A stretch of 32,435 nt of DNA from Deltaproteobacteria bacterium. GTDB lineage: Bacteria; Myxococcota_A; Polyangia; Polyangiales; Polyangiaceae. The DNA is taken from positions 1 through 32,435 of the forward strand of contig VGRJ01000046.1 of the NCBI GenBank assembly GCA_016875405.1, read 5' to 3'. The translations under genes and the position numbers were made by a program. Below the pieces are notes generated by a model. The model was not told the DNA's origin, did no database searches, and worked only from the letters and a program-made list of their open reading frames with translations. This document shows, one piece after another, positions 4,875 to 28,727 of the stretch. Positions within the stretch are counted from its first letter, which is position 1, and the number at the start of each line of letters is the position of its first letter.

Positions 4875-6524
4875 GTGACTTCGAACCGACAGCCACCGTC
4901 CATCTCGCGAACCGCGGGGCCCTCGCTCGGCGCGCTCCTCATCGACAGCGCGCTCGCCTACGGCGAGCGGGTGGCCCTCGTCGTCGACGGTGCGTCGCAC
5001 ACCTATGCGGACTTCGTCGGGCGAGCGGCGCGCATCGGCGCCGTGCTCGCCGCCGCGCCGGTGAGCGCTCCGGCGCTCGGCGCCGTGTTCGCAGGGCACA
5101 CGCTCACGTCGTACCTCGGCGTGGTCGGAACGCTCCTCTCCGGGGCGGGCTACGTCCCCCTGAACCCTCGGTTTCCAGACGCCCGCAACGCCACCATGCT
5201 GCGTGCCTCCGGGGCGCGCTCGCTCGTGATCGGCTCCGAGCACCTCGGCCGCCTCGACGCGCTGCTCGCGGGGCTCACCGCGCCCGTCACCGTCGTCGTG
5301 CCCGATCTGGTCGACACCGAGGCGCTCGCGTCGCGCCTCGCGCCGCACGTCATCGTCGGTGCTGCCGCCCTCGACGCAGCGAGCCCCGCGCTCGAGCGAC
5401 CCGCGGTCGACCCGGGCTCGATCGGCTACCTGATGTTCACCTCGGGGAGCACCGGGACGCCGCGCGGCGTCGGCGTCACGCACCAGAACGCGCTCCACCA
5501 CCTCGCCGCGATGTGGGAGCGCTACGGGGTCACGGTCGAGGATCGCCTCTCGCAGACCTTTGACCTCACCTTCGACCTCTCGGTGTTCGACATGTTCGTC
5601 GCCTGGGGTCGCGGCGCGGCGCTCTACAGCGTCCCCGCGACCGACATGCTCGCGCCCGCGAAGTTCATCCAGCGCACGGGGCTCACGATCTGGTTCTCGG
5701 TGCCGTCGGCGGCCATCGTGATGAAGAACCTCCGGCTCCTCGCGTCCGGCGCGTTTCCCACCCTGCGGTTCAGCCTCTTCTGCGGTGAGCGCTTGCCGCA
5801 GTCGATCGCCGAGGCCTGGCAAGCCGCCGCGCCGGCCTCGATCGTCGAGAACCTCTACGGCCCCACCGAGGCGACCATCGCTTGCACGCTGTATCGCTGG
5901 GAGCCGCAGCGCTCGCCGGCGCAGTGCGTCGAGGGCGTGGTGCCGATCGGCCGTCCCTACCCGGGCATGACGGCGGCGATCGTCGACGAGCACCTCGCGC
6001 CGGTTCCCGCCGGGACGAAGGGAGAGCTCGCCGTCCGTGGACCACAGGTGACCGCCGGCTACTGGAACGATCCCGACAAGACCGCGGAGCGCTTCGTCGC
6101 GATGCCGTGGGACGCTGGGCCCGAGAACCGCTGGTACCGCACCGGCGATGTCGCCTTCGTCGGTCCGGAAGGCGAGCTCGCGTTCTGCGGGCGCGCCGAC
6201 GACCAGGTGAAGATCCGGGGCTTTCGCGTGGACCTCGCCGAGATCGAGCACGGCCTGAGGCAAGCCGCGGGGACGGAGGCCGTGGCGGTCATCCCCGATC
6301 CGAAGGATGGCGACACCGTGACGGGCGTGTTGGGCTTCGTCGCGGGCCGAGAGGGAACGCCTCCGGCTGCCATCCTGCTAGAGGTGAAGAAGCTCTTGCC
6401 GGACTACATGGTCCCGCGAGCGCTCGTGATGGTGAGCGAGCTGCCGCTCAACGCCAACGGTAAAGTGGATAAGCGTCAATTGCGACGACTTGCGGAAGAA
6501 GGACCCCATGGCCACCCAAAGTGA
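4875..6524 (+). CDS. DltA-like amino acid adenylating enzyme (D-alanine--carrier ligase family)
   Basis: A 549-residue ANL-superfamily adenylation enzyme that should use ATP to activate an amino acid and load it on the carrier encoded next. Core motifs occur in order: A3 MFTSGSTGTPRGV, A4 FDLTFDLSVFDM, A5 NLYGPTEATI, A7 YRTGD, A8 GRADDQVKIRGFRVDLAEIE and the A10 lysine in NANGKVDK. FDLSVFD keeps the Asp that binds a substrate alpha-amino group. SLFCGERLP and YGPTEATIACT resemble DltA; Cys303 in FCGE is at the position reported to set D-alanine preference in Bacillus DltA. This points to D-alanine or another small amino acid, but specificity is not proven. There is no fused carrier or condensation domain, so it is standalone. 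Start is GTG, preceded by a GAGGA-like site. The carrier gene overlaps its 3' end. Confidence 0.9.
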   Translation: MTSNRQPPSISRTAGPSLGALLIDSALAYGERVALVVDGASHTYADFVGRAARIGAVLAAAPVSAPALGAVFAGHTLTSYLGVVGTLLSGAGYVPLNPRFPDARNATMLRASGARSLVIGSEHLGRLDALLAGLTAPVTVVVPDLVDTEALASRLAPHVIVGAAALDAASPALERPAVDPGSIGYLMFTSGSTGTPRGVGVTHQNALHHLAAMWERYGVTVEDRLSQTFDLTFDLSVFDMFVAWGRGAALYSVPATDMLAPAKFIQRTGLTIWFSVPSAAIVMKNLRLLASGAFPTLRFSLFCGERLPQSIAEAWQAAAPASIVENLYGPTEATIACTLYRWEPQRSPAQCVEGVVPIGRPYPGMTAAIVDEHLAPVPAGTKGELAVRGPQVTAGYWNDPDKTAERFVAMPWDAGPENRWYRTGDVAFVGPEGELAFCGRADDQVKIRGFRVDLAEIEHGLRQAAGTEAVAVIPDPKDGDTVTGVLGFVAGREGTPPAAILLEVKKLLPDYMVPRALVMVSELPLNANGKVDKRQLRRLAEEGPHGHPK

Positions 6525-6759
6525 AGTGAAAGCCTTTTTGCTCGAGCATCTGCGCGAGCAGCTCGCCGCCGCCGGGGTCGCGGACCCAGCGGATGAGCTT
6601 CAGCTGATCGACACCGGCGTCATCGACTCGTTCGGGTTCCTCGCGCTCGTGACCGCGGCCGAGGCGACGTTCGGCATCCAGCTCGACGTCTCCCAGGTCG
6701 ACCTCGGGCGCCTCGCGACCATCGGCGGCTTCGCCGAGATCGTGTCCGAGGCTGGCTGA
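6508..6759 (+). CDS. Standalone acyl/aminoacyl carrier protein (DltC-like)
   Basis: An 83-residue acidic helical protein. The phosphopantetheine attachment site is Ser41 in VIDSFGFLALV. The size matches DltC and other freestanding carriers. It should receive the amino acid from the upstream adenylating enzyme as a thioester on the 4'-phosphopantetheine arm and present it to the MBOAT protein at the inner face of the membrane. The ATG at 6508 is preferred to the upstream in-frame TTG at 6490 because GGAAGAAGGA lies just before it and family members begin close to this point. It overlaps the ligase gene by 17 bp, which indicates translational coupling. No phosphopantetheinyl transferase is encoded nearby. 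Confidence 0.9.
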   Translation: MATQSEVKAFLLEHLREQLAAAGVADPADELQLIDTGVIDSFGFLALVTAAEATFGIQLDVSQVDLGRLATIGGFAEIVSEAG

Positions 6760-12142: not shown

Positions 12143-13615
12143 TCAGCCGTCGAGACCCGGCAGGGGCTTGGTCCCGTCCTCGCCGAACAACGGACCGCCT
12201 CCCATCGGCGGGGCAAAGGTAACGCCGAGTCGCTGCGCCAACCCGAGGTGCAAGTCCGCGAACGTGTCGTTTTTCATCGCGCCGCCGTTGAACGCGAGAT
12301 GACGGTCGGTCGCGATCGTTCCGCCGCAGGAGCCGGCGAGAACGAGCGGGAGGTCATTCGCGAGATGGTGATCGGGCTCACCGAGCTCGCTGCCGAACAG
12401 CACCACGCTGTTGTCGAGCAGCGTGCCACCGGTTGGCTCGACGACGTCGTCGAGGCGGCGCAGCAAGTAGGCGAGCCGCTCGATCTCCCAGGTGTTGATC
12501 GCGGCGAGCTTGGCGAGATAGGCGGCCTTGCGCTCCTCGAGCGTGCCCACCTCGCTCGCGAGCGGGGCGTTCCAGTGGCTGTAGGTGTGCTTCTGTTCGG
12601 TGAGCGGCTTTCCGTCGTGCAGCACGAAGTCGTAGGCCTTCCCAAACGACGCCCCGCCCGAGTGACGCATGAACGAGATCACCCGCGTGAGATCGCACTT
12701 GAACGCGAGCGTCATGAGATCGGCCATCAAGTCGAGGCGCTCGGGGTATGAGACAGGCACGGCTCCGAGCGGGTCGACCTCGCAGGCAGCCGCGGCGCCC
12801 ATCGCCTGCGCCTTGACCTCCGCCTCGTCGACCGCGGTGAGGTACTGCTCGAGCTTGTAGCGATCGGCCTGCCCGAGCTTGCCATGAAGCGACTTGGCGT
12901 CGGCGTGCACCACGTCGAGTACCCGCAGCTTGCGTGCCTTGCGGCGCGCCAAGTCGGCAGGGCTCACGCCACCTGCGCTCGACGAGAACAGCGTCTCGAA
13001 CACCTCGCCCGGAGCGTTCAACTGGGCGAGCGGGGTCGTCGCGTCGGCCCAAGAAATGAAGCCGAGGTAGGCACAAGGCCAGCCCGCAGCGCAGGCGCCG
13101 TTCGCCGAGCCGTGCAGGCCGAGCTGCAACGAGCGATGCGGGGTGATGTACCCGAGAGAGGTCGCGATGGACTGGTCGATCGATTGGCCGGCCCCGAACG
13201 GTGTTCGGTCGACGTGTCGGCAGGAGAGGAAGCTCGCCGTTTGTTGAAAGTGCGCGCCATTGGCGTCGTCGTCGCTGGCGCGATAGTTCGCCGGTGCATT
13301 GTCGAGGCCGCTCACCACGAGGAGCTTCTCGCGCAGATCCTTCTTGCCGTCGCCGCCGGCGAGCGGCGCGAGAAACCCCGGGAGACCGGGCAGCGAGGAG
13401 AGCTTGCCCCCCGCCATCGTCGCGACCGCGTCGGCCCAGACGTTCATGTTGAAACCGTTGGGCACGTAGTAATAGAGCACCCGCCGAATCGGTGTCGGTG
13501 GCTCCGCGCGCGCGCCACGCGGCGTAAGGCTCTCGAGCAATGGCAGCGCGAGCCCAACGCCGAGCCCGCGCAGCAAGAGGCGCCGCCCAAACGCGCGACC
13601 GTCACCGACCGTCAT
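12143..13615 (-). CDS. Tat-exported DUF1552 protein
   Basis: A 490-residue protein with a twin-arginine leader (FGRRLLLRGLGVGLALPLLESL, about residues 9-30, cleavage probably after ARA) followed by RVLYYYVPNGFNMNVWADA, the usual opening of DUF1552 proteins of myxobacteria and planctomycetes. Later segments such as ISFMRHSGGASFG, YSHWNAPLASEV and the VVLFGSELGEPDHHLANDLPLV region are also typical. They recall the sulfatase/alkaline-phosphatase-like fold of DUF1501 proteins, but no function is established. It is encoded immediately downstream of the DUF1592 protein, with a 4-bp overlap at 13612-13615. That pairing is conserved in these phyla and suggests a shared periplasmic or surface role. 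Tat export suggests that it folds, possibly around a cofactor, before secretion. Confidence 0.9.
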   Translation of the reverse strand: MTVGDGRAFGRRLLLRGLGVGLALPLLESLTPRGARAEPPTPIRRVLYYYVPNGFNMNVWADAVATMAGGKLSSLPGLPGFLAPLAGGDGKKDLREKLLVVSGLDNAPANYRASDDDANGAHFQQTASFLSCRHVDRTPFGAGQSIDQSIATSLGYITPHRSLQLGLHGSANGACAAGWPCAYLGFISWADATTPLAQLNAPGEVFETLFSSSAGGVSPADLARRKARKLRVLDVVHADAKSLHGKLGQADRYKLEQYLTAVDEAEVKAQAMGAAAACEVDPLGAVPVSYPERLDLMADLMTLAFKCDLTRVISFMRHSGGASFGKAYDFVLHDGKPLTEQKHTYSHWNAPLASEVGTLEERKAAYLAKLAAINTWEIERLAYLLRRLDDVVEPTGGTLLDNSVVLFGSELGEPDHHLANDLPLVLAGSCGGTIATDRHLAFNGGAMKNDTFADLHLGLAQRLGVTFAPPMGGGPLFGEDGTKPLPGLDG

Positions 13616-16155
13616 GGTTGTCCTCCAAAGAGGTCGTCGTATTCACCTTGCTTTGCGGGGCGACGCGAACGGAAGGTCGGGCCCATCGCCACCGCACGGA
13701 CGAGCGCCTTCAACGTGTAGCCGCCGTCCGCGAAGCCCGAGGTCACGGCCTCGACGGCGCACGGGTCGAACCTGGTAGGGTCGGTCCCGAGCGCATACGT
13801 CAGCATTTTGCGGGCGGTGCACAGGGGAAATCCCGGGTCCGACTTGACGTATGCGACGACGTCACCGAGCCCGTTCAGCGTGACGCCATCTGGCAGCGAC
13901 GCGACGTCATCGACCGGCTCGCCGGTGGCGTAGGTGGTCCGCGCTTGGCCGATCGCGTCGAACCCTTCGAGCGCGAACCCGAGCGGGTCCATCTGCGCGT
14001 GGCATCCCGCACAGCTCGGTGAGGTGGTGTGCTGCTCGAGCATCTCTTTGGGCGAGAGGTTCGCGACGTCTTTCCCTTCGAAGGTCGCGTCGACGTTCGG
14101 AGGCGGCGCGCCGGGCGGCCGGCAGAGCAGTTGCTCGAGCAGCCACTTGCCGCGCTTGGTGGGCGACGTTCGCGAGGGGTGGGACGTCATCATGAGCACG
14201 CCCGCCGAAGCGAGCAGCCCGCCGCGCCCCGACGCGCCCGGGCTCACCGCGACGAACGCCTCGCCGAGGCCGGTCGCATCCAGCCCATAGTGCGCGGCGA
14301 GGCGCGCATCGACGAAGACGCGCGGTGAATCGATGAGCTCGAAGACCGTCCGCTCGTTCGCGAGGGCATCGACGAGGATCGCGTGAAGTTCACCCATGAA
14401 AGAGGCCTTCAACGCGTCCGAAAAGTTTGGGAACGCGCCCGCGCTGGGAGACGAGCTCTCGATCGACTCGAGTTGCAGCCACTGCGCGGCGAAGCGCTCG
14501 ACGATCGCGGAGGCGCGCGGATCCTGGAGCATCCGGTCGAGCTCGGCGCCGAGCACGTCGTCTTGGACGAGGTCACCCGCTGCCGCGTGCGCGAGCAGGT
14601 CGGCGTCCGGCGGCCCACCCCAAACGAAGTACGAGAGCCGCGTTGCCAGCTCGTAGCCGTCGAGCGGGCGGCTCGCTGGGACGTCGGGCTCAGGGTCGAG
14701 CTCCGGTCGGAAGAGAAAATTCGGCGACGCGAGCGCCGCCTCGAGCACGGCCTCGAGACCGTCCTTGAAGCTCTCGCCGGCCGCGGCTGCGTCGTCGACC
14801 AGGACGGCATACCGGGCGACTTCGTCGCTGGTGGCGGGTCGGCGCCACAGCACTGCGAGGGCGTTCGCGATGGCTTGGTCCCGGCATGCGAACGAATCGC
14901 ACAAGAGGAACCGTGCGATGCGAGCGGCATCGACCGGCGGGAGATCGGCGGGGAGCGGCCCAGTCCACCGGATCCGGTCGACGTCGAGCGTGACATCGCG
15001 TTCTTCACGCGCCCAGTACACGACGTTGTCGAGCCACACCCGCACCGAGTGAAAGCCGGGCTCGAGCGGCACCGAGACCGAATAGCTCGCGAACGGCCCG
15101 AGTTGCGAGGGCTCGGCCACACTCGCGACGTCGATCCCTTGGCCGACGAGCTGTCCGTCGACCATCACGACGAGCTTCGGCGCGACGTTGTTCTCGACGA
15201 GTAACCAGGGCCCGTCGTGCGCGGCTTGATGTTGGACGCACAGGTCGTACGCGTTCGGCTCCGGGCAGGTGTAGTGCGGCGCGCTCGTGCCGCGCGCCTT
15301 CACCTCGATGGTGTAGGTGCCTGCGTAGGGCGCGTGTTGAAGTCCGCCGTTCAGATAACTTCGGATTCTTTGGAAGTGGTAGTGCTCCCCTACGACGGAG
15401 CCTTGGCCGGGGCCCGGCTTCTGACCGTTGTAGATGTACGCGGAAAGCGACTCGGCCTCGAGGTTGGTCTCGACGGAGCTCGGGACCAACAGCGTCTCCC
15501 GGGCGAGGCGCGCTCCGACGTTGAGGTAGCGCTCGAGATGGCCGATCGACAGCGTCTGCGCGGACGCGACGTTGTCGAAGCCGTGGCCTGGCGTATCGGC
15601 TGCGAGGCCCGAGGAGGGCTCCGTCGCGTCCCCGAGCGACCGCGCTGCGGTGCGGTCGTACTCGTCGTTCGAGAGACGGCGAAGCAACACGTTGCCAGGG
15701 TCGGCGTCGCTGCAGCTCGCAGGCGGCAGATCGCTTGCCGCCATCCGACAGACGAGCCTCTCGACCGCGCTCCGCTCCGCTTCCGGCCAAGCCTGCCCCG
15801 CGAGCGGCATTCGAAGCCCGTCGCTCCGAGCGAGCATCGCGAGCAGCGTGCGCTCGCCCGTGGGGTCGAGCAGCCCTCGCACGCGCGACTGGCGAAAGGT
15901 CTCATCGGCATCGGGCCACACGACGAAGGGGCGCGACGAGTCCGGTGCGTGACAGGCGACGCAGCCGCCTTGGTCGACCGGGCGCAGGAGCAGCGGATGA
16001 ACCGAGGTCGCATACTCGGCCGCGAGCTCTGTCTCGGTCCCGGCCGGGCAGTCGACAGAGGTCTGCGGAGCCGGAGGTTCGGCACATGCCGCCGCCAGGC
16101 TAGCGAGAGCGCTACTTAGGACGAAGGCGGGACGAGAGAGTGTGCGACGGCGCAT
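13612..16155 (-). CDS. DUF1587/1592/1588/1585 lipoprotein with haem-binding-type motifs
   Basis: An 847-residue exported protein with a lipobox at LAAAC (Cys24). A cytochrome-like N-terminal segment contains CVACH (Cys65, Cys68, His69). DUF1587 follows (VLLRRLSNDEYDRTAARSL), then an inserted beta-rich region around residues 260-395 that looks like a ligand-binding sandwich (YTIEVKARG...GFHSVRVWLDN). After it come DUF1592 (LDGYELATRLSYFVWGGPPD), DUF1588 (RGGLLASAGVLMMTSHPSRTSPTKRGKWLL), CAGCHAQMDPLGF and DUF1585 at the C-terminus. Two CxxCH sites suggest covalent c-type haem and redox activity, but haem loading is not demonstrated. The family is abundant in planctomycetes and myxobacteria and may act on polymers outside the cell. 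It is the first gene of a two-gene operon with the DUF1552 protein. Confidence 0.92.
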   Translation of the reverse strand: MRRRTLSRPAFVLSSALASLAAACAEPPAPQTSVDCPAGTETELAAEYATSVHPLLLRPVDQGGCVACHAPDSSRPFVVWPDADETFRQSRVRGLLDPTGERTLLAMLARSDGLRMPLAGQAWPEAERSAVERLVCRMAASDLPPASCSDADPGNVLLRRLSNDEYDRTAARSLGDATEPSSGLAADTPGHGFDNVASAQTLSIGHLERYLNVGARLARETLLVPSSVETNLEAESLSAYIYNGQKPGPGQGSVVGEHYHFQRIRSYLNGGLQHAPYAGTYTIEVKARGTSAPHYTCPEPNAYDLCVQHQAAHDGPWLLVENNVAPKLVVMVDGQLVGQGIDVASVAEPSQLGPFASYSVSVPLEPGFHSVRVWLDNVVYWAREERDVTLDVDRIRWTGPLPADLPPVDAARIARFLLCDSFACRDQAIANALAVLWRRPATSDEVARYAVLVDDAAAAGESFKDGLEAVLEAALASPNFLFRPELDPEPDVPASRPLDGYELATRLSYFVWGGPPDADLLAHAAAGDLVQDDVLGAELDRMLQDPRASAIVERFAAQWLQLESIESSSPSAGAFPNFSDALKASFMGELHAILVDALANERTVFELIDSPRVFVDARLAAHYGLDATGLGEAFVAVSPGASGRGGLLASAGVLMMTSHPSRTSPTKRGKWLLEQLLCRPPGAPPPNVDATFEGKDVANLSPKEMLEQHTTSPSCAGCHAQMDPLGFALEGFDAIGQARTTYATGEPVDDVASLPDGVTLNGLGDVVAYVKSDPGFPLCTARKMLTYALGTDPTRFDPCAVEAVTSGFADGGYTLKALVRAVAMGPTFRSRRPAKQGEYDDLFGGQP

Positions 16156-21293: not shown

Positions 21294-21884
21294 CTAGCGA
21301 CGCGACGGGAGGAGCGGGGAGCGGCCGCCTTTCCGGTTGAAGCGAAAGGTGTACGCCATGTTGACGAGCGCGCAGAGGACGTGGACTGTGAGCCAGAATT
21401 TCCACATGCCCTCGCTCGGGAAGAACGGGACCCAGCGCACCCCGAGGTAGACGAGCGTCGCGAGCCCTGCGGTCTTCCACGGCGCGACGTAGAGGAGCCC
21501 GAGCGGCCCGAAGAGCAGGCCGACGAGGGCCGCGATGCCGTATTTTCGCTGGACGAGCGCGTCCTGTTGGAGGACCACCTCGACGCGGGCGGTCGCGCCC
21601 TCGGCCAAGAGCCTGCCCGCGGCGTCGAGCATGCCATCGCGCACCGCGCGCTCGGCGTCGTCGAGTCGTGCGCCCACTCCGCGCCGCACGAGCCGCGGCT
21701 TTCCGTACGTGGTCGCGCCGGCGTCTTCGTATCGGTCGAGCGTCCCGTCGCGAACGAGCGCATCCAGCAGCGTCGTGACGCTTCGCACGGAGAGGTCGAC
21801 TCGCTCGCTGACCTCCGTCACGCTCACACGCTCGCCGCCGCTGACCATCGAAACGACGATCGCTTCGAACTCGCCACGATTCAC
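21294..21884 (-). CDS. Winged-helix protein fused to two membrane segments, unknown function
   Basis: A 196-residue protein with an unusual plan. Residues 3-68 look like a winged helix: EFEAIVVSMVSGGERVSVTEVSERVDLSVRSVTTLLDALVRDGTL is a helix-turn-helix followed by a wing ending at GKPRLV. Residues 72-112 form an amphipathic helical linker. Hydrophobic segments at about 116-135, 138-154 and 161-180 suggest at least two membrane passes. The C-terminus is basic (RFNRKGGRSP). I do not recognise a family. It could be a membrane-tethered regulator, or the N-terminal winged helix could mediate protein contacts. It is a single gene, convergent with the glycosidase gene 37 bp away and next to a zone of decayed genes. 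Confidence 0.8.
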   Translation of the reverse strand: MNRGEFEAIVVSMVSGGERVSVTEVSERVDLSVRSVTTLLDALVRDGTLDRYEDAGATTYGKPRLVRRGVGARLDDAERAVRDGMLDAAGRLLAEGATARVEVVLQQDALVQRKYGIAALVGLLFGPLGLLYVAPWKTAGLATLVYLGVRWVPFFPSEGMWKFWLTVHVLCALVNMAYTFRFNRKGGRSPLLPSRR

Positions 21885-22039
21885 GGCACCATCCTAGGGA
21901 CGAGGGGGGGTAGGGGCAACGTCGTCGACGACGAGGCCGCTCATCACCGATCGCGGTCATGAGCCTCTTTGCGACCGCCAAGTGGTCCGGCGAATGCACC
22001 TGTCTTCCTGCCGGCCTTCTCGCCGGCGTGAAGGTGACC

Positions 22040-22858
22040 ATGATTCGATGGCGGACGCGACTGTGGTTGGCGCTCCTGGCTCTGCTCCCAGGCGCGGCAA
22101 TTCGTATGGCAATTCGCCGGTGATCGGTGACCGCATCGATGACTCGTCGAGCGAGGTCGTGGTGCTCCAGGGGACGTCGTGCGTGAGCTTGCTCGCCGGG
22201 CAATCGATCGTCGCCGGGTCGATCTGCGCGGCGATTGACGAGGATGACCTCGTCTTGACGTACGCGACGACCGGCCGCTGGCGGCTGTACGAGGCGCAGC
22301 TCTGGGCGGGCTTGTCGATCCTCGACATGCCGCAGACGAACTTGGGCAATCCGAAGGTCGGCCTGTTCCCGTTCAAGTCGGAGTCGCTCGCGGGGGTGTC
22401 GAGCTACGCGTTTCGAGTGCCGCTCGCCACGTTCGAGCTCTCGAGCCGCTTGGAGGTGTGTGACCCGGTCACCGGCTACATCGTCGCTCACGCCCTCGTG
22501 AAGCGCCCGCTGCCTTGAGGTGGCGTGCCGTCGGAGACGGCGTACGGCGAAGGGACGCGCCTCGTCCAGAAGGGGAACCGGGCCACTGGGTTCAGCGTGC
22601 GGATGACGTACGAGGATCCTTCGTCCGACCTCGGGACGTGTGGTACCGCGTTCGCGTTCGGAAACGGCGCCGCGCAGTGCTTCATCGGCTCGGGCCACGT
22701 GCAGACGAGCCGCTGGGGCTGGACGAACGGCCCGCTCTCGCCGGGCAGCTATTCGTTCCCGCTCTACGCGGGCGCCGGCAAGTTCGACCTGACGAAGGTG
22801 ACCCTCGTGGGCACGCTGTCGGTCGTGCGCTCGACACCGTTCGTCGTGTCCTCACCCT
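22040..22858 (+). pseudogene. Broken secreted protein with two beta-rich repeats
   Basis: The ATG at 22040, preceded by AAGGTGA, opens a good signal peptide (MIRWRTRLWLALLALLPG), but that frame soon stops. The body lies in another frame: SICAAIDEDDLVLTYATTGRW, EAQLWAGLSILDMPQTNLGN and GLFPFKSES. That frame is cut by a single TGA at 22516-22518 and then continues as SETAYGEGTRLVQKGN, GTAFAFGNGAAQCF, RWGWTNGPLSPGSYSFPLYAGAG and VTLVGTLSV. These are recognisable halves of one secreted-domain protein known from diverse bacteria with no assigned function; the recognition is from memory. The C-terminus is lost where the P450 relic begins. One frameshift, one stop and a missing end indicate a pseudogene. 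Confidence 0.75.
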
Positions 22859-22859
22859 C

Positions 22860-23810
22860 ATGCCGTCGCTCGCCATCCCCACCGCGCTTCGCCGGACGGC
22901 GTCGGCCCTCTCGGCGCCCGTCCGCGGGGTGGCGACCTTCGCCGTGTTCGCGCGCGAACAGCTCGGGCACCTCCAGCGCCTCGGGGATGAGCAGGGTGAC
23001 GTCGCGCGCTTCGAGATGCTGGGCGCGATGTTCTAGATGCTCCGGCACCCTCGAGACGTCGAGGCGCGGCTCGTTCACCACGCGCGGAGCGTCGGCCGCG
23101 TCGACTACGTTTAGGCCCTCGTGCGCGCGCTCGGCTCCGGCTTCCGAGGTGGCTGCCGACGCCGCTCAATCGCCGCATGAACGCGGCCGTCGAGGCGATC
23201 GATGGCGTGGTGTTCCGCATCCTTCGCGAGCGACGGTCGAGCCCGCCACGCGATGATTTGCAAGGAACACTGCTCGCGGTAGAGGACGATGTCGGCGCGC
23301 TCATGTCGGAGGCGCAGCTCCGCGACGAGGCGTCACGCTGTTCCTCGCGGGACAGGAGACGACGGCGCTCGCACTCGCGCACTCCCTATACCTGCTGAGT
23401 TGGCACCCCGAGGTCGAGCGGCGACTGCACGCCGAGCTCGCGAGCGCCCTCGCCGGTCGCACGGTGCTCGAGCCCATCGAGCTCGGGGAGCACGTCCTCG
23501 GAAAGGGGGGAGCAGGTCCTCGTGAGCCAGTGGGTGCTGCATCGCGACGCGCGCTGGTTCCCAGAGCCGGAGCGGTTCGCACCCGACCGCGCGAAAGACC
23601 CGCCTCGCTACGCGTACCTCCCGTTCGGGGCTGGGCCTCAGGTGTGCATCGGGAGCCATTTCGCCATGATGGAAGCGACGCTCTTGCTTGCGACCATCGC
23701 GCAACGCTCGCGCGGTCTCGGCGGAGGTGCCGCGCGGCGTCTCGCTCGCGCCCTCGAAGGTCGATGGGACGGATTTTCTGAGCGGCGATGCGCGGCTGGA
23801 GTCGGTCACG
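22860..23810 (+). pseudogene. Decayed cytochrome P450
   Basis: Bacterial P450 sequence can be followed across several frames. The ATG at 22860 opens DEQGDVARFEMLG and stops at TAG 23034. The same frame resumes as LRHPRDVEARLVHHARSVGRVDYV and stops again just after 23122. About 30 codons later another frame reads WLPTPLNRRMNAAVEAIDGVVFRILRERR and MSEAQLRDE. A shift near 23330 gives the I-helix TLFLAGQETTALALAHSLYLL with the oxygen-binding AGxET motif. A further shift at the G6 run 23505-23510 gives VLVSQWVLHRDARWFPEPERFAPDR and the haem loop FGAGPQVCIG. All landmarks are there, but with at least two stops and three frame changes, and part of the substrate-recognition region is deleted. The enzyme cannot be functional. 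Confidence 0.88.
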
Positions 23811-23946
23811 CACGCTGGCGAGAACCTACGAGGTCTTCGCGAAGGTCACCGGATGCGACGGCGAGGGGGAGGGCGAGCTCCACGTCACGTCCGTCGGGGG
23901 CCCCGCGCGCGTCTTCTTCGCGGGGCGACGCGCCGCGACCCCTTGA
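23811..23946 (+). pseudogene. Possible short relic after the P450
   Basis: After the P450 remnant, a stretch with good codon bias reads TYEVFAKVTGCDGEGEGELHVTSV and ends at a TGA near 23944. The preceding residues (LSGDARLESVTHAGEN) lie in a different frame. It looks like the C-terminus of another broken gene, but I cannot assign a family, and it may be chance. Confidence 0.25.
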
Positions 23947-23961
23947 GTGAGCGGACCGCGC

Positions 23962-24555
23962 TCAGGGACGACGGGTGCCGCGCGAGACCGTCGCGTCGGG
24001 GACGACTTCGATCGCGTCGAGATCGAGGTCCCACTCCGAGGTGGCCGTCTGGATGTACGCGAGCGCGTCGTCGAGCGGCCTCGGCGGTTGCGCCGCGTGC
24101 TCTCGCTCGGCGGCGAGCGAGGCGAGGCGCTTCATGGCGGCGCGATGTTGTCGAATCCCGGCGATCGCGATGAGCTCCTGAAAGCGTAGCGCGAGCGGGC
24201 TCCGCGCGCGCAAGAGCGACTCGAAGGTGTCGCGCAAGAGCTCGAGGACCACGACCTCGGTCTTCGCGCGGAGCGTCGCGGAGCGAGGCCCGCGATCGAC
24301 GAGCGCGACTTGACCGACGAACGCGCCTGGCGCCATGGTCGTCAAGTGCTGCTCCGTCCCATGGACTTCTCGGAGGACGTCGAGCTGGCCCGCAACGAGG
24401 AGCATGCTCGACGTCCCGCGCGTTCCCTGCTTAACGACGATGCTGCCGCTCTCGAACACTCGGCGCTGCGCGGCCGAGACGAGGAGCGCGAGCTCCTCGA
24501 CGGTGAAGTCCTTCAAGCTCGCGAAGGAGCGCAGCTGGCTCACGTCGATGCTCAT
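23962..24555 (-). CDS. Cyclic-nucleotide-binding-domain protein with altered phosphate cassette
   Basis: A 197-residue protein with one CAP-type cyclic-nucleotide-binding domain at about residues 8-125 and no DNA-binding or enzyme domain. The phosphate-binding cassette reads GAFVGQVALVDRGPRSAT. The Arg that binds the cyclic phosphate is kept (RSAT), but the usual Glu of the GE-x-A/L motif is Gln. The C-terminal 70 residues form helices (ALRFQELIAIAGIRQHRAAM) and an acidic end. The ATG at 24555 is chosen because GGAGGAAAG precedes it and it overlaps the stop of the upstream gene (ATGA). It is the second gene of a two-gene operon of sister proteins. Whether it still binds cAMP or cGMP is uncertain. 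Confidence 0.88.
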   Translation of the reverse strand: MSIDVSQLRSFASLKDFTVEELALLVSAAQRRVFESGSIVVKQGTRGTSSMLLVAGQLDVLREVHGTEQHLTTMAPGAFVGQVALVDRGPRSATLRAKTEVVVLELLRDTFESLLRARSPLALRFQELIAIAGIRQHRAAMKRLASLAAEREHAAQPPRPLDDALAYIQTATSEWDLDLDAIEVVPDATVSRGTRRP

Positions 24556-25151
24556 CGCTCTTTCCTCCACCGGTCGAGGACGCCCCAAAAGCCGCCCCGC
24601 TCCGAGGCGGGCTCCGCGGTGGCGTGCGCAGGCTCCGCGGGCGACGCCTTGGGGTCGGACCCGAGGGCGTCGATCTTGGCGTCGACGTCGCGGAGGCGCC
24701 GGGTGACGTCACCGATCACCCCGGACAGGATCGTCGCGTAGACGTTGGGGGCGTGCTCGCGGAGCATCCTCAGCGCGTCGCGGGACAGCTCCCCGATGAG
24801 CGTCGTCTCGAGCGCCGCGAGGGTGGCAGAGCGAGGCGCAGGATCGATGCACGCCATTTCTCCGAGGATTTCGCCGGCGCCCGACTGGCCGAGCTCGAGC
24901 TCCGGACCCTCGCCGTCGCGGGTGTACACGCCGACGCGCCCGTAACAGACGACCACCATCGTGTCGCCGACGTCTCCCTGCGACCAAACGACCTCGGGCA
25001 CCTCGAGCTCGCGGAAGCGCAGGCTCGCGAGCAGCGCGTCGAGGTCCGCGTCGCCGAGGTCCTGGAACATCCGCACGAGCCGAAGAAGGCTGCGGTCGGG
25101 CTTTTGAGCGCTCAAGGTCTTTCTCTCTTCGTGCCTGAGCCGCGGTAGCAT
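24552..25151 (-). CDS. Cyclic-nucleotide-binding-domain protein
   Basis: A 199-residue protein built like its downstream neighbour. A short N-terminal helix (SLLRLVRMFQDLGDADLDALL) leads into a cyclic-nucleotide-binding domain with the canonical cassette GAGEILGEMACIDPAPRSAT, including both the Glu and the Arg contacts. A variable C-terminal part (RDVDAKIDALGSDPKASPAE...) ends in WGVLDRWRKER. There is no output domain, so it probably works through protein contacts. Start choice is unsure: the ATG at 25151 lacks a Shine-Dalgarno, and a TTG at 25115 preceded by a purine-rich AGAGAGAAAG stretch is a fair alternative. Its stop overlaps the start of the next gene, so the pair is translationally coupled. 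Both lie between decayed genes yet are fully open. Confidence 0.88.
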   Translation of the reverse strand: MLPRLRHEERKTLSAQKPDRSLLRLVRMFQDLGDADLDALLASLRFRELEVPEVVWSQGDVGDTMVVVCYGRVGVYTRDGEGPELELGQSGAGEILGEMACIDPAPRSATLAALETTLIGELSRDALRMLREHAPNVYATILSGVIGDVTRRLRDVDAKIDALGSDPKASPAEPAHATAEPASERGGFWGVLDRWRKER

Positions 25152-25323
25152 GGAGGAGCGCGCGCTGCACAGGACGAAGCCTCTCGCACGGACGGTTGCC
25201 AGGCCCTCCGCGTGCGGAAAGTCTCGGTCGACCTCGGCTGGACGGACTATCGAAGCCCTCGTGTGTCGGCTCGACCTCTCCGAGCCGCCGACCGTCTCCG
25301 CCTTCGATTCGAGGAGTCCCAGC

Positions 25324-26216
25324 ATGTCCCTTCGCCGCGCATCCCAACCGCTCGTCCTGGTCTCGGTGCTCGGCCTCTCGTTGCTGGCGGCGATGTCGGG
25401 CGCCTGCAGCGACGCGCCGGCTCCGCCGCCACCGGACCTGACGGCCGCGATTTCATCCACGGGACGAGGAACGAGCGCACCGCCTCGATCGGCGACTTTA
25501 TCGGGGATGACGGCAGCTACGGCGTGAACGATCTCCCGGGTGAGCTCGCGAAGTGCGAGGAGGAGTGGAAGTACGGCTTCGAGACCTGGGCGGTCGGCGT
25601 CTAGAACGAGGATGGCGGCTGGGTCTACGGGCAGGCGTTCGGTTCGAGCAGCGCCAAGCCCGGGGTTCCGCAGGTCGAGGGAGACGGCGCGCGCCAGCTC
25701 CTCCGCGGGCTCCCGTTTCCCGAGGCCATGCTCGTCACGAAATTCCTCGCGACGAACGCCCCGGTCGACTGCGTGCCTTACCTAAAGGGCTCGCCCGAGT
25801 GGCAGATCCATCGCCACGTCCGCAAGGCCGACGGGCGGTACTCGTTCGCGCGGTCGGTGCAGACGTCGCGGATCATCCAGGTCGATGTTGCGGTGGTCGA
25901 CGAGCGCTCCCCGACGCGTTGGGTCTACGGCACCTTCTCCTACGACGGCGGACGGCCGGGGGACACCGTGTGGGACCGCCTCGTCGCGGTCGGCGTCGAG
26001 TGGGGCGGCAACCCGAAGACCTACCCCGCCGTGAAAGACAAGAGTGCGCCGCTCACGGACAGCGCGATCAACCCCGACCTCATCACCTTCCGGCACCTCG
26101 GCTGCGAGGGCCGCATGAACGGGCCCGTCGGCGCTGACTCGAGCCCGTGCGGTATCTCGTGCTGCGCTGCGAGGTCGAGCCCTGGAAGCGACTCGTTCGA
26201 GTCGTGGACCGAGTAG
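25324..26216 (+). pseudogene. Broken exported lipoprotein
   Basis: The ATG at 25324 opens a convincing lipoprotein signal (LVLVSVLGLSLLAAMSGAC) and a Pro-rich linker. That frame then loses sense, and the next good sequence (GRDFIHGTRNERTASIGDFIGDDGSYG, CEEEWKYGFETWAVGV) is in a different frame, so a frameshift lies near 25430-25450. A TAG at 25602-25604 interrupts this second frame, after which it reads NEDGGWVYGQAF through RWVYGTFSYDGGRPGDTVWDRL to NPDLITFRHLGCEGRMNGPV. From about 26110 the frame runs antisense into the VgrG relic and ends at 26216, so the true C-terminus appears lost. I do not know the family. SPCGISC near the junction is not a complete CxxCH haem site. Confidence 0.72.
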
Positions 26217-26890
26217 CAGCGTCCGACGGGCTTGCGTCGCATCGAGAGCTTCTGGATGACGTGCGCGCCCGCCGCGGCCTCGTCGTGGCTGAACGTATCG
26301 ATGAGGAGGGGGCGAAGCCGTTGGCGCGATCGCTGAAGACCATGCGGGTCTCGGACCCGTGGTGTTCGAACGAGTAGCTCACGCCGACGTGCTCGAGCAG
26401 GCGAGAGACAAACGTCAGGTCGCTCCCCTGGTAGTGCGCCACGAAGTCGCGCGGGGCGTAGCGCTCGAGCAGACGAGACTCGCTCGTCGCGAGGCAGCCG
26501 ATGACGTCGAGCTTGCTCTGCACGATGTCGAAAATGCTCTGGTCGACGAACGTCTCGGAGGCCTCGACCGCCGCGAGCGCCAGCGCCCGGGGACCACACG
26601 CAGGGAGAGCCGCGCGAGGCCCGGCGGGGCCTCGAGATCCTCATCCCACGGAGTGATGTTGCCGTGGACGCGGTGAGGGACGCCGCCGAGCCCGAGCGGC
26701 GCGAACACGAGCGTGATCGAGCTCGTGACGAGCGCGTCGCGGTCGGGGCCGATGCCGTCGAGCGCTACGACCTCGGGTTCGAACTCGAACATCTTCGAGG
26801 TCGCCTCGCGGCCGACAAGGACCTGATGCGCAGGTCCTTGCAGGAAAACTCCTTGGATTCGAGGGTGATGGCGTGGGTGGCAGCGCTCAC
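26100..26890 (-). pseudogene. vgrG: Decayed type VI secretion spike protein VgrG (N-terminal part)
   Basis: Minus-strand sequence from a GTG at 26890 reads as the N-terminal half of VgrG/TssI in four successive frames: AITLESKEFSCKDLRIRSL, then VLVGREATSKMFEFEPEVVALD and GVPHRVHGNITPWDED, then FVDQSIFDI into CLATSESRLLERYAPRDFVAHYQGSDLTFVSRLLEHVGVSYSFEH, then VIQKLSMRRKPVGRCYSVHDSNESLPGLDL. The block YQGSDLTFVSRLLEHVGVSYSFEH is the hallmark of the gp27-like domain. The gp5-like OB fold and beta-helix needle are absent, so the gene is both frameshifted and truncated. No other type VI gene is present in the window. It starts 22 bp after the stop of the acyl-CoA dehydrogenase gene. Confidence 0.87.
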
Positions 26891-26912
26891 GGCGTGAGAG
26901 GTTTCCACGCCG

Positions 26913-28727
26913 TCAGAAGGCTTCGTCAGGCAAGCTCATCAGCTCGAGGCTCGACCCCTCGACGAGCTTCCGGGTGAGCGTCAGCGCGGGCAGGACGTTC
27001 TTCGACCAGAAGCGGCAGCTCGCGGCCTTTCCGTCATAGAAGGCCGCGTCTTCGGGGCGCTCGGCCTTGCCCTTCTGCGCCGCGATCGCGTGGCGGACGA
27101 GCAGCCAGCCGATGACGAGCTCGGCGAGCGCGAACAGGATCCGGTTGCCCTGGAGACCGACGTGGTAGAGCGACTCGCCGAGCTTGCCCATCATCGCACC
27201 AAGGATCCCCTTCACGTCGTTCAACGCGCGGAGGAGCGCGGCGCGGTCCTCGGCCAAGGTCTCCCCGCCGTCGCTGCTCGTCGCGACGGCCTCGATCTCA
27301 CCAAGGAGCTTCATCAGCGTCGCGCCGTTGTCGCGGGCGATCTTGCGGAAGAAGAGGTCGAGCGCCTGGATGTGCGTCGTGCCCTCGTAGAGCGTGTCGA
27401 TCTTCTGGTCGCGGACGTATTGCTCGATCGGGTAGTCCTGACAGTAACCGGAGCCGCCGTACGTCTGCAGGCTGAGCGACAGCTGCTCGTAGGCCTTCTC
27501 GGAGCCGTAGCCCTTCACGAGCGGCAGCAGCATGTCGTTCCGCCGGTCCATCCCGTCGGCCTCCTTGGCGCCATGGCCGCCGAGGATCTCGACCTGGTCT
27601 TGCACCCACGCGGTGTAGAGGTCGAGCGCGCGGAGACCCTCGGCGTGAGCCTTCTGGCTCATCAACATGCGGCGCACGTCGGGGTGCTTCAGGATCGTGA
27701 CGCGCGGGCTGTCCTTCTCGGTCGCGCGCAGGAGGTCAGGGCCTTGCACGCGGTCCTTCGCGTAGCCGAGCGCGTTGAGGTAGGCGGTCGACAGCGTCGC
27801 CATGCTCTTGACGCCGACGGCCATGCGGGCCTGCTCGATCACGTGGAACATCTGCCGGATCCCGTCGTGTACGTCACCGAGCAGGAGGCCGCGCGCGGGC
27901 ACGCCGTCGCCGAACACCATCTCGCAGGTGGCCGACCCCTTGATGCCCATCTTCTTCTCGACCTTGGTGACGAAGGCGCCGTTGCGCTCACCGAGGCCGC
28001 CGTCCTCGTTCACCCAGAACTTCGGCACGAGGAAGAGGCTCAGGCCCTTCGTGCCGACCGCGCCGCCCTCGGGGCGCGCGAGCACGAGGTGGATGAGGTT
28101 CTCGGGGACGTCGAAGTCTCCGTTCGTGATGAAGCGCTTCGTGCCCTCGAGCTCCCAGATGTCCCCTTCGACGTGGCGAGCCTTGGTGCGCCCCGCGCCG
28201 ACGTCGCTGCCCGCGTCCGGCTCGGTGAGCACCATCGTGCCGCCCCAGCGCTTCTCGAGGAGCCCAGGGAGCAGGCGCGCCTTCTGCGCGTCCGTCCCGT
28301 GGCGATCGATGGTGCGCGCCGCGAAGCTGCCGAAGAGATAGAAGGCGAGCGGGGCGTTGCCGCCGGCGACGTGCTCGAACGCGGCCCAGTTCACGCTGGG
28401 CGGGAGGCCCATCCCGCCGAGGTGCTCCGGCAGGGTCATCAGGTGGGCGCTCGCGTCGTAGAACGCGTGGTAAGCCTTGGCGAGGCCCTCCGGGACCTTG
28501 ACGTTGCCCTTGCCGTCGAACTCGAGCGGGACGCGATCGCTCTCGACGAAGCTCTGCTGGAGGTCGGCGAGCACGAGCTTCTCGGACTGCTTCAACGCCT
28601 CGCGCGCGGTCTCCTCGTCGACCGCGGCGAACGGCCCCTTCCCGAGGGTCGTCGTCTGGATCTCGAGGACCTCGAAGAGGTTGAAGAAGGTGTCGCGAAG
28701 GTGGCTCTTGTAATGTTCTTCGAGCAT
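26913..28727 (-). CDS. Acyl-CoA dehydrogenase, long form
   Basis: A 604-residue FAD-dependent acyl-CoA dehydrogenase of the larger bacterial type, with a short N-terminal extension (HYKSHLRDTFFNLFEVL) and a C-terminal helical domain of about 110 residues. The medial beta domain has TMVLTEPDAGSDVGAGRTKA and WELEGTKRFITNGD. The C-terminal helical domain has QMFHVIEQARMAVGVKSMA, LQTYGGSGYCQDYPIEQYVRD and YEGTTHIQALDL, in which Glu448 is the expected catalytic base. It should oxidise an acyl-CoA to the trans-2-enoyl-CoA in fatty-acid beta-oxidation, passing electrons to ETF. Chain-length preference is not visible. GGGAG lies 6 nt before the ATG. It is a single gene. No other beta-oxidation gene is nearby. 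Confidence 0.95.
   Translation of the reverse strand: MLEEHYKSHLRDTFFNLFEVLEIQTTTLGKGPFAAVDEETAREALKQSEKLVLADLQQSFVESDRVPLEFDGKGNVKVPEGLAKAYHAFYDASAHLMTLPEHLGGMGLPPSVNWAAFEHVAGGNAPLAFYLFGSFAARTIDRHGTDAQKARLLPGLLEKRWGGTMVLTEPDAGSDVGAGRTKARHVEGDIWELEGTKRFITNGDFDVPENLIHLVLARPEGGAVGTKGLSLFLVPKFWVNEDGGLGERNGAFVTKVEKKMGIKGSATCEMVFGDGVPARGLLLGDVHDGIRQMFHVIEQARMAVGVKSMATLSTAYLNALGYAKDRVQGPDLLRATEKDSPRVTILKHPDVRRMLMSQKAHAEGLRALDLYTAWVQDQVEILGGHGAKEADGMDRRNDMLLPLVKGYGSEKAYEQLSLSLQTYGGSGYCQDYPIEQYVRDQKIDTLYEGTTHIQALDLFFRKIARDNGATLMKLLGEIEAVATSSDGGETLAEDRAALLRALNDVKGILGAMMGKLGESLYHVGLQGNRILFALAELVIGWLLVRHAIAAQKGKAERPEDAAFYDGKAASCRFWSKNVLPALTLTRKLVEGSSLELMSLPDEAF

Follow-up and report, generated by a model that had tools for sequence, protein, structure and literature searches.

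Four decayed genes around an intact pair of cyclic-nucleotide-binding-domain genes in a Polyangiaceae genome

Pseudogenes that carry several lesions are usually cleared fast. In Salmonella, most pseudogenes are young and have a single inactivating mutation (Kuo and Ochman 2010, PMC2916853). The locus described here resembles the Salmonella set (PMC2916853) in that accessory genes have been broken by stops, frameshifts and deletions in a gene-dense genome; unlike that set, it has several multi-lesion relics side by side, which is rarer. Between 22.0 and 26.9 kb it holds four relics, i.e. those of a two-domain secreted protein, a cytochrome P450, a lipoprotein and a vgrG, together with an intact pair of genes for proteins with cyclic-nucleotide-binding (cNMP) domains. 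We interpret it as a pseudogene cluster that arose by ordinary piecemeal deletional decay of dispensable genes around an intact conserved pair (probability about 0.85). As such, it is a fresh example of an already known kind of gene loss.

Genomic setting

The window, i.e. the whole stretch of 32,435 nucleotides that was analysed, is the entire contig C46 of a metagenome-assembled genome (G000; 5.02 Mb in 218 contigs, 99% complete) that is placed in the Polyangiaceae, Myxococcota. The four congeners searched (G001, G002, G003 and G004) have genomes of 4.1-5.2 Mb, while those of other family members searched reach up to 16 Mb; the names of related records suggest that the genus lives in fresh water. 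Using a codon-usage gene finder trained on G000, we called genes in a sample of 432 kb of this genome. The coding share of this sample is 92%, and thus G000 is not generally error-ridden. Positions 22001-27000 have the lowest share of strong genes among all 1330 overlapping 5-kb stretches of the sample (fraction 0.24 vs a median of 0.87).

The genes of the window scatter over different contigs of G004, G001, G002 and G003, and gene order is scrambled within the genus. Neither an intact nor an empty version of the locus was found in the congeners; the right flank shares only the acyl-CoA dehydrogenase, which is 85% identical to a gene on G004:C27 and has no neighbours in common with it.

Table 1. 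Features of the locus, with positions in the window
Feature	Positions	Strand	Basis
Left flank: intact-looking 196-aa protein	21294..21884	-	no family match
Two-domain secreted protein relic	22040..22850	+	alignment to G067 homologue
Cytochrome P450 relic	22860..23713	+	Pfam and alignment to intact G026 protein
Sequence between P450 relic and intact pair	23714..23961	+	no gene called, no homologue found
cNMP-binding-domain protein 1, 197 aa, intact, downstream gene of the pair	23962..24555	-	PF00027, E=9.5e-18
cNMP-binding-domain protein 2, ~186 aa, intact, exact start uncertain	24552..25112	-	PF00027, E=7.4e-17
Lipoprotein relic	25324..26150	+	alignment to intact homologue G004:C13:2518-3957
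Likely deletion junction	26140..26160	none	lipoprotein ends ~26150, vgrG ends 26144, oxidase absent from G000
vgrG relic, N-terminal ~245 residues only	26144..26888	-	PF05954 and alignments to intact paralogues
Right flank: intact acyl-CoA dehydrogenase	26913..28727	-	Pfam

Lesions in the four relics

Lesions were located by frameshift-aware alignment of intact homologues to the window, covering one assembly and one genome of the species. The initial annotation had called for a comparison with intact homologues; these were found in other genomes for the lipoprotein (G004), the P450 (G026) and the secreted protein (G067), and for vgrG the homologue is a paralogue in G000 itself. Each relic has recognisable homology to an intact gene, and the alignments recovered all four relics and every lesion that had been named from the letters alone. 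In total, the four relics, each with lesions of several kinds, have 4 in-frame stops and ~7 frameshifts as well as large deletions, and the 3' end is missing from all four. Individual point lesions, read from one assembly, could be sequencing errors; the internal deletions and truncations are disabling lesions that such errors do not explain.

The secreted-protein relic aligns at 36% identity to residues 40-325 of the 386-aa homologue in G067, and both halves align, i.e. on either side of an in-frame TGA at 22516-22518. The last ~60 residues are absent and the signal peptide start is in a different frame from the body. Codon usage stays coding-like across the TGA, which is the single stop in ~740 coding-like bases. 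Searches of Pfam and NCBIfam with this relic, and likewise with the lipoprotein relic, returned no family.

The P450 relic was detected by Pfam in pieces (PF00067; E=3.7e-19 and 3.9e-8). Residues 13-84 of the G026 protein align at 22926-23141 and residues 181-413 at 23129-23713, with a loss of 96 residues between the two blocks (homologue residues 85-180); two further deletions removed 32 and 5 residues, and there are two stops (TAG at 23034-23036 and 23112-23114) and two frameshifts (~23331 and ~23500). No homology to the C-terminus was found beyond 23713. As in cytochromes P450 (PF00067), an I-helix AGxET-type segment and the heme-ligand cysteine loop FxxGxxxCxG are present, the latter as FGAGPQVCIG (23504-23713); unlike in a functional P450, the K-helix ExxR region, homologue residues 85-180 and the C-terminus are deleted. 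Because the ExxR motif lies within the 32-residue deletion, no active P450 is possible. The nearest relative of the relic is from another family of the order (66% identity). When the five congeneric genomes were searched for the P450 family, the two relic pieces in the window were the sole matches; in the family as a whole, 45 of 60 genomes have a match, the relic pieces counted in.

In G004, the intact lipoprotein gene heads an operon with a multicopper oxidase gene identified by Pfam. The middle of the lipoprotein relic is 68-75% identical to this same-genus protein (75% DNA identity over 709 bp, E=2.6e-132); unlike the G004 operon, the relic lacks the interior and the tail of the lipoprotein as well as the oxidase partner. 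The lipobox start lies at 25324, and a ~100-residue frame-shifting deletion at 25440 brings it up against the body; short repeats at this deletion were limited to 7-8 mers, i.e. to chance level. From 25443 to ~26150, the body aligns without indels and with one TAG at 25602-25604; near 26150 homology stops, and the last ~100 residues including a CxxCH motif are gone. The stop at 25602 had been the lesion noted in this gene, and it is present; since it lies inside the 709-bp indel-free stretch, the gravest damage to the lipoprotein is the internal deletion together with the lost 3' end.

A second gene of the same orientation comes after the lipoprotein gene in G004, a Lake Erken MAG, Granulicella, Candidatus Rhodobacter lobularis and L113; this second gene is a multicopper oxidase by Pfam in G004 and was placed by position and sequence start only in the other four. 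In G022, a different gene lies downstream of the lipoprotein gene. The CxxCH lipoprotein family, which has no Pfam or NCBIfam match, is found across Myxococcota, Acidobacteria, Proteobacteria and others (L021 2518-5703, L112 1270-4422, L114, L115).

The vgrG relic has the VgrG/phage baseplate hub domain (PF05954; E=1.3e-18), is homologous in this N-terminal part to the intact G000 paralogue and aligns to residues 7-247 of it. Unlike an intact VgrG, it has three frameshifts (near 26820, 26593 and 26258-26297) and its distal half is gone, with homology stopping at 26144; a functional VgrG has a complete hub and the distal part, while the relic covers only positions 70-213 of the 305 of the profile. 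Its identity to the two relatives used for comparison is 41-43%; one of them is the G000 paralogue. PF05954 matches number 9-22 per genome in G000-G004, with 21 in G000 and ~20 in each of the three most complete congeners. With this many hub-domain matches in the genome, losing one vgrG may be of little cost. One PF05954 match, in G000:C94, has a TAA in frame.

Near 26150, the lipoprotein and vgrG relics, both cut short at the 3' end, abut tail to tail. Moreover, a search of G000 with the G004 multicopper oxidase gave no match, and no remnant of such a gene was found in the window. Two stumps tail to tail and an absent oxidase make a deletion near 26150 likely; in the simplest reading, one or more deletions at ~26150 would have removed both tails and the oxidase.

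The intact pair and selection on the relics

The two cNMP genes in the middle of the cluster had been described as intact, and both frames proved to be whole; they overlap by 4 bases (ATGA), and their PF00027 scores are 64.4 and 61.5 bits with a cut-off of 27.5. Like Crp-like cNMP-binding proteins (PF00027), both proteins have the domain, here in two adjacent single-domain proteins; unlike Crp-like proteins, the pair has no match to a DNA-binding domain. Most likely, these are cyclic-nucleotide-sensing proteins without a DNA-binding domain. The family libraries searched contain no name for the paired arrangement. Order and adjacency of the two genes are kept in G038, G029 and G020 (44-47% identity), in surroundings that differ among the three (L106, L107, L108). 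A search of the four other congeners at E<=1e-15 did not find the pair, and it was thus either lost by them or gained by G000.

We scored residues at which one sequence differs from three others that agree. The pair in the window has 7 and 9 such changes, compared with 9-11 and 11-15 in the other genomes; the pair is thus not accelerated. At the stop and frameshift rate of the relics, ~3.8 lesions would be expected in the 1151 bp of the pair (P(none)=0.02), which is a rough figure, since lesions were the criterion by which the relics had been picked. The proposal that the pair is the part still under selection is supported by a rate no faster than that of intact homologues and by the conserved adjacency in three other genomes.

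Differences between the lipoprotein relic and the G004 gene are 0.18, 0.12 and 0.46 at the three codon positions (ratio 0.33), and the corresponding ratio for the acyl-CoA dehydrogenase, an intact gene, is 0.26 between G000 and G004; codon-position bias is still strong in the relic. When the Lake Erken sequence serves as outgroup, unique amino-acid changes number 23 in the relic and 9 in G004, and unique synonymous changes are balanced at 22 vs 28 (Fisher p=0.022); with other outgroups p ranges from 0.015 to 0.81, and in the relative-rate tests of this gene p spans 0.01 to 0.8. For the P450, the nearest outgroup gives 44 unique amino-acid changes in the relic vs 15 in its intact partner (p=0.0002), and another outgroup gives 32 vs 21 (p=0.17). 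These relative-rate results, which cover the lipoprotein and the P450, depend on the outgroup, and some outgroups give no significant difference. The relic branches have probably evolved under relaxed constraint, though briefly relative to the divergence. With the nearest outgroups, both relics are faster than their intact relatives, yet they have kept their coding signatures, which argues that the decay is recent. The recent loss of selection that had been suggested for the region as a whole is in this way supported, in outgroup-dependent fashion, for these two relics.

Explanations for the cluster and gene-poor stretches in the genus

In the mechanism that we propose, four unrelated accessory genes would have ceased to be of selective value, possibly not all at once, in a Polyangiaceae lineage whose genome is small for the family. 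Stops by point mutation, small indels and deletions, the last of these from 15 up to at least several hundred bases long, would then have accrued, and one or more deletions probably took the lipoprotein tail, the whole multicopper-oxidase partner and the distal part of vgrG. We infer this order of events from the state of the relics; the pair may have been kept since its product is still in use. The nearest relatives differ among the relics, and some relics may therefore have arrived by transfer before they decayed; because gene order is scrambled in the genus, the ancestral presence of the relic genes at this locus stays a presumption.

As an alternative, the initial annotation had offered a site where foreign DNA gathers and decays, i.e. 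an insertion hotspot in which the cNMP pair would be a recent arrival that has not yet decayed. The functions of the relics are unrelated, their nearest relatives differ and the lipoprotein family is patchy across phyla, all of which fits such a site, as do the failure to find the pair in the four other congeners and its different contexts in G038, G029 and G020. However, the G+C content of all pieces is <=1.1 s.d. from that of the genome, codon usage is typical in the secreted-protein, lipoprotein and vgrG pieces as well as in the cNMP pair, and the closest lipoprotein gene, at 75% DNA identity, is from the same genus. The codon usage of the P450 pieces, which ranges from below the 1st to the 38th percentile of intact genes, could reflect decay or foreign origin. 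Moreover, no tRNA, integrase or junction or flanking repeat was found at the locus, which thus has neither the integrase, the tRNA target or flanking repeats, nor, for most pieces, the foreign composition of an integrative element or genomic island. An insertion hotspot is quite unlikely on this evidence.

An assembly or sequencing artefact might be suspected in a metagenome-assembled genome of 218 contigs; base-calling errors, however, do not yield large coherent deletions, an absent operon partner or evolutionary acceleration, the genes next to the relics are intact and the 432-kb sample has a coding density of 92%, which makes an artefact very improbable; a join at 26150 or 22850 could by itself be chimeric. 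That the fragments are kept as functional remnants, e.g. as short proteins, as regulatory RNA or as donors in recombination with other vgrG genes, would agree with a secreted-protein gene that has one stop in all of its coding-like bases and with the ~20 other VgrG-domain matches in the genome. Nevertheless, at 41-43% identity to the two relatives compared the vgrG relic is too distant for gene conversion, the P450 has lost its ExxR region and Rfam gave no match at the locus; we regard such a role as most improbable. In an extended form of piecemeal decay, the locus would be a true deletion and decay hotspot with repeated accessory-gene loss in a small-genome genus, in which the cNMP pair is the conserved survivor and the last P450 of the genus was lost; this extension is unlikely.

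With piecemeal decay as the preferred explanation, four multi-lesion relics in a gene-dense genome give a view of gene loss in progress; the setting is a lineage with genomes of 4-5 Mb in a family whose genomes reach 16 Mb. The P450 relic is the sole trace of this enzyme family in the genus, and the loss of the family is thus directly traceable; beyond these two points, the cluster is ordinary.

Strong-gene fractions near or below 0.24 were found in one other stretch of G000 (L085, 0.33) and in two stretches of G004 (0.19 and 0.25). These stretches were identified as gene-poor by density, and not as relic clusters; being similarly low, they indicate that gene-poor stretches recur in the genus. 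A genome-wide pseudogene census based on coding-like segments with internal stops was unusable, as most matches elsewhere resemble gene ends overrunning into their neighbours. The second gene-poor stretch of G000 is L085 4044-7089 (G000:C39), in which an open frame at 5767-6408 seems to resume at 6425-6646 past a break and is possibly another broken gene. Finally, positions 13612-16155 of the window encode, on the minus strand, a large intact protein with PSD2-PSD5 and PSCyt3 domains (DUF1585, 1587, 1588, 1592, 1595).
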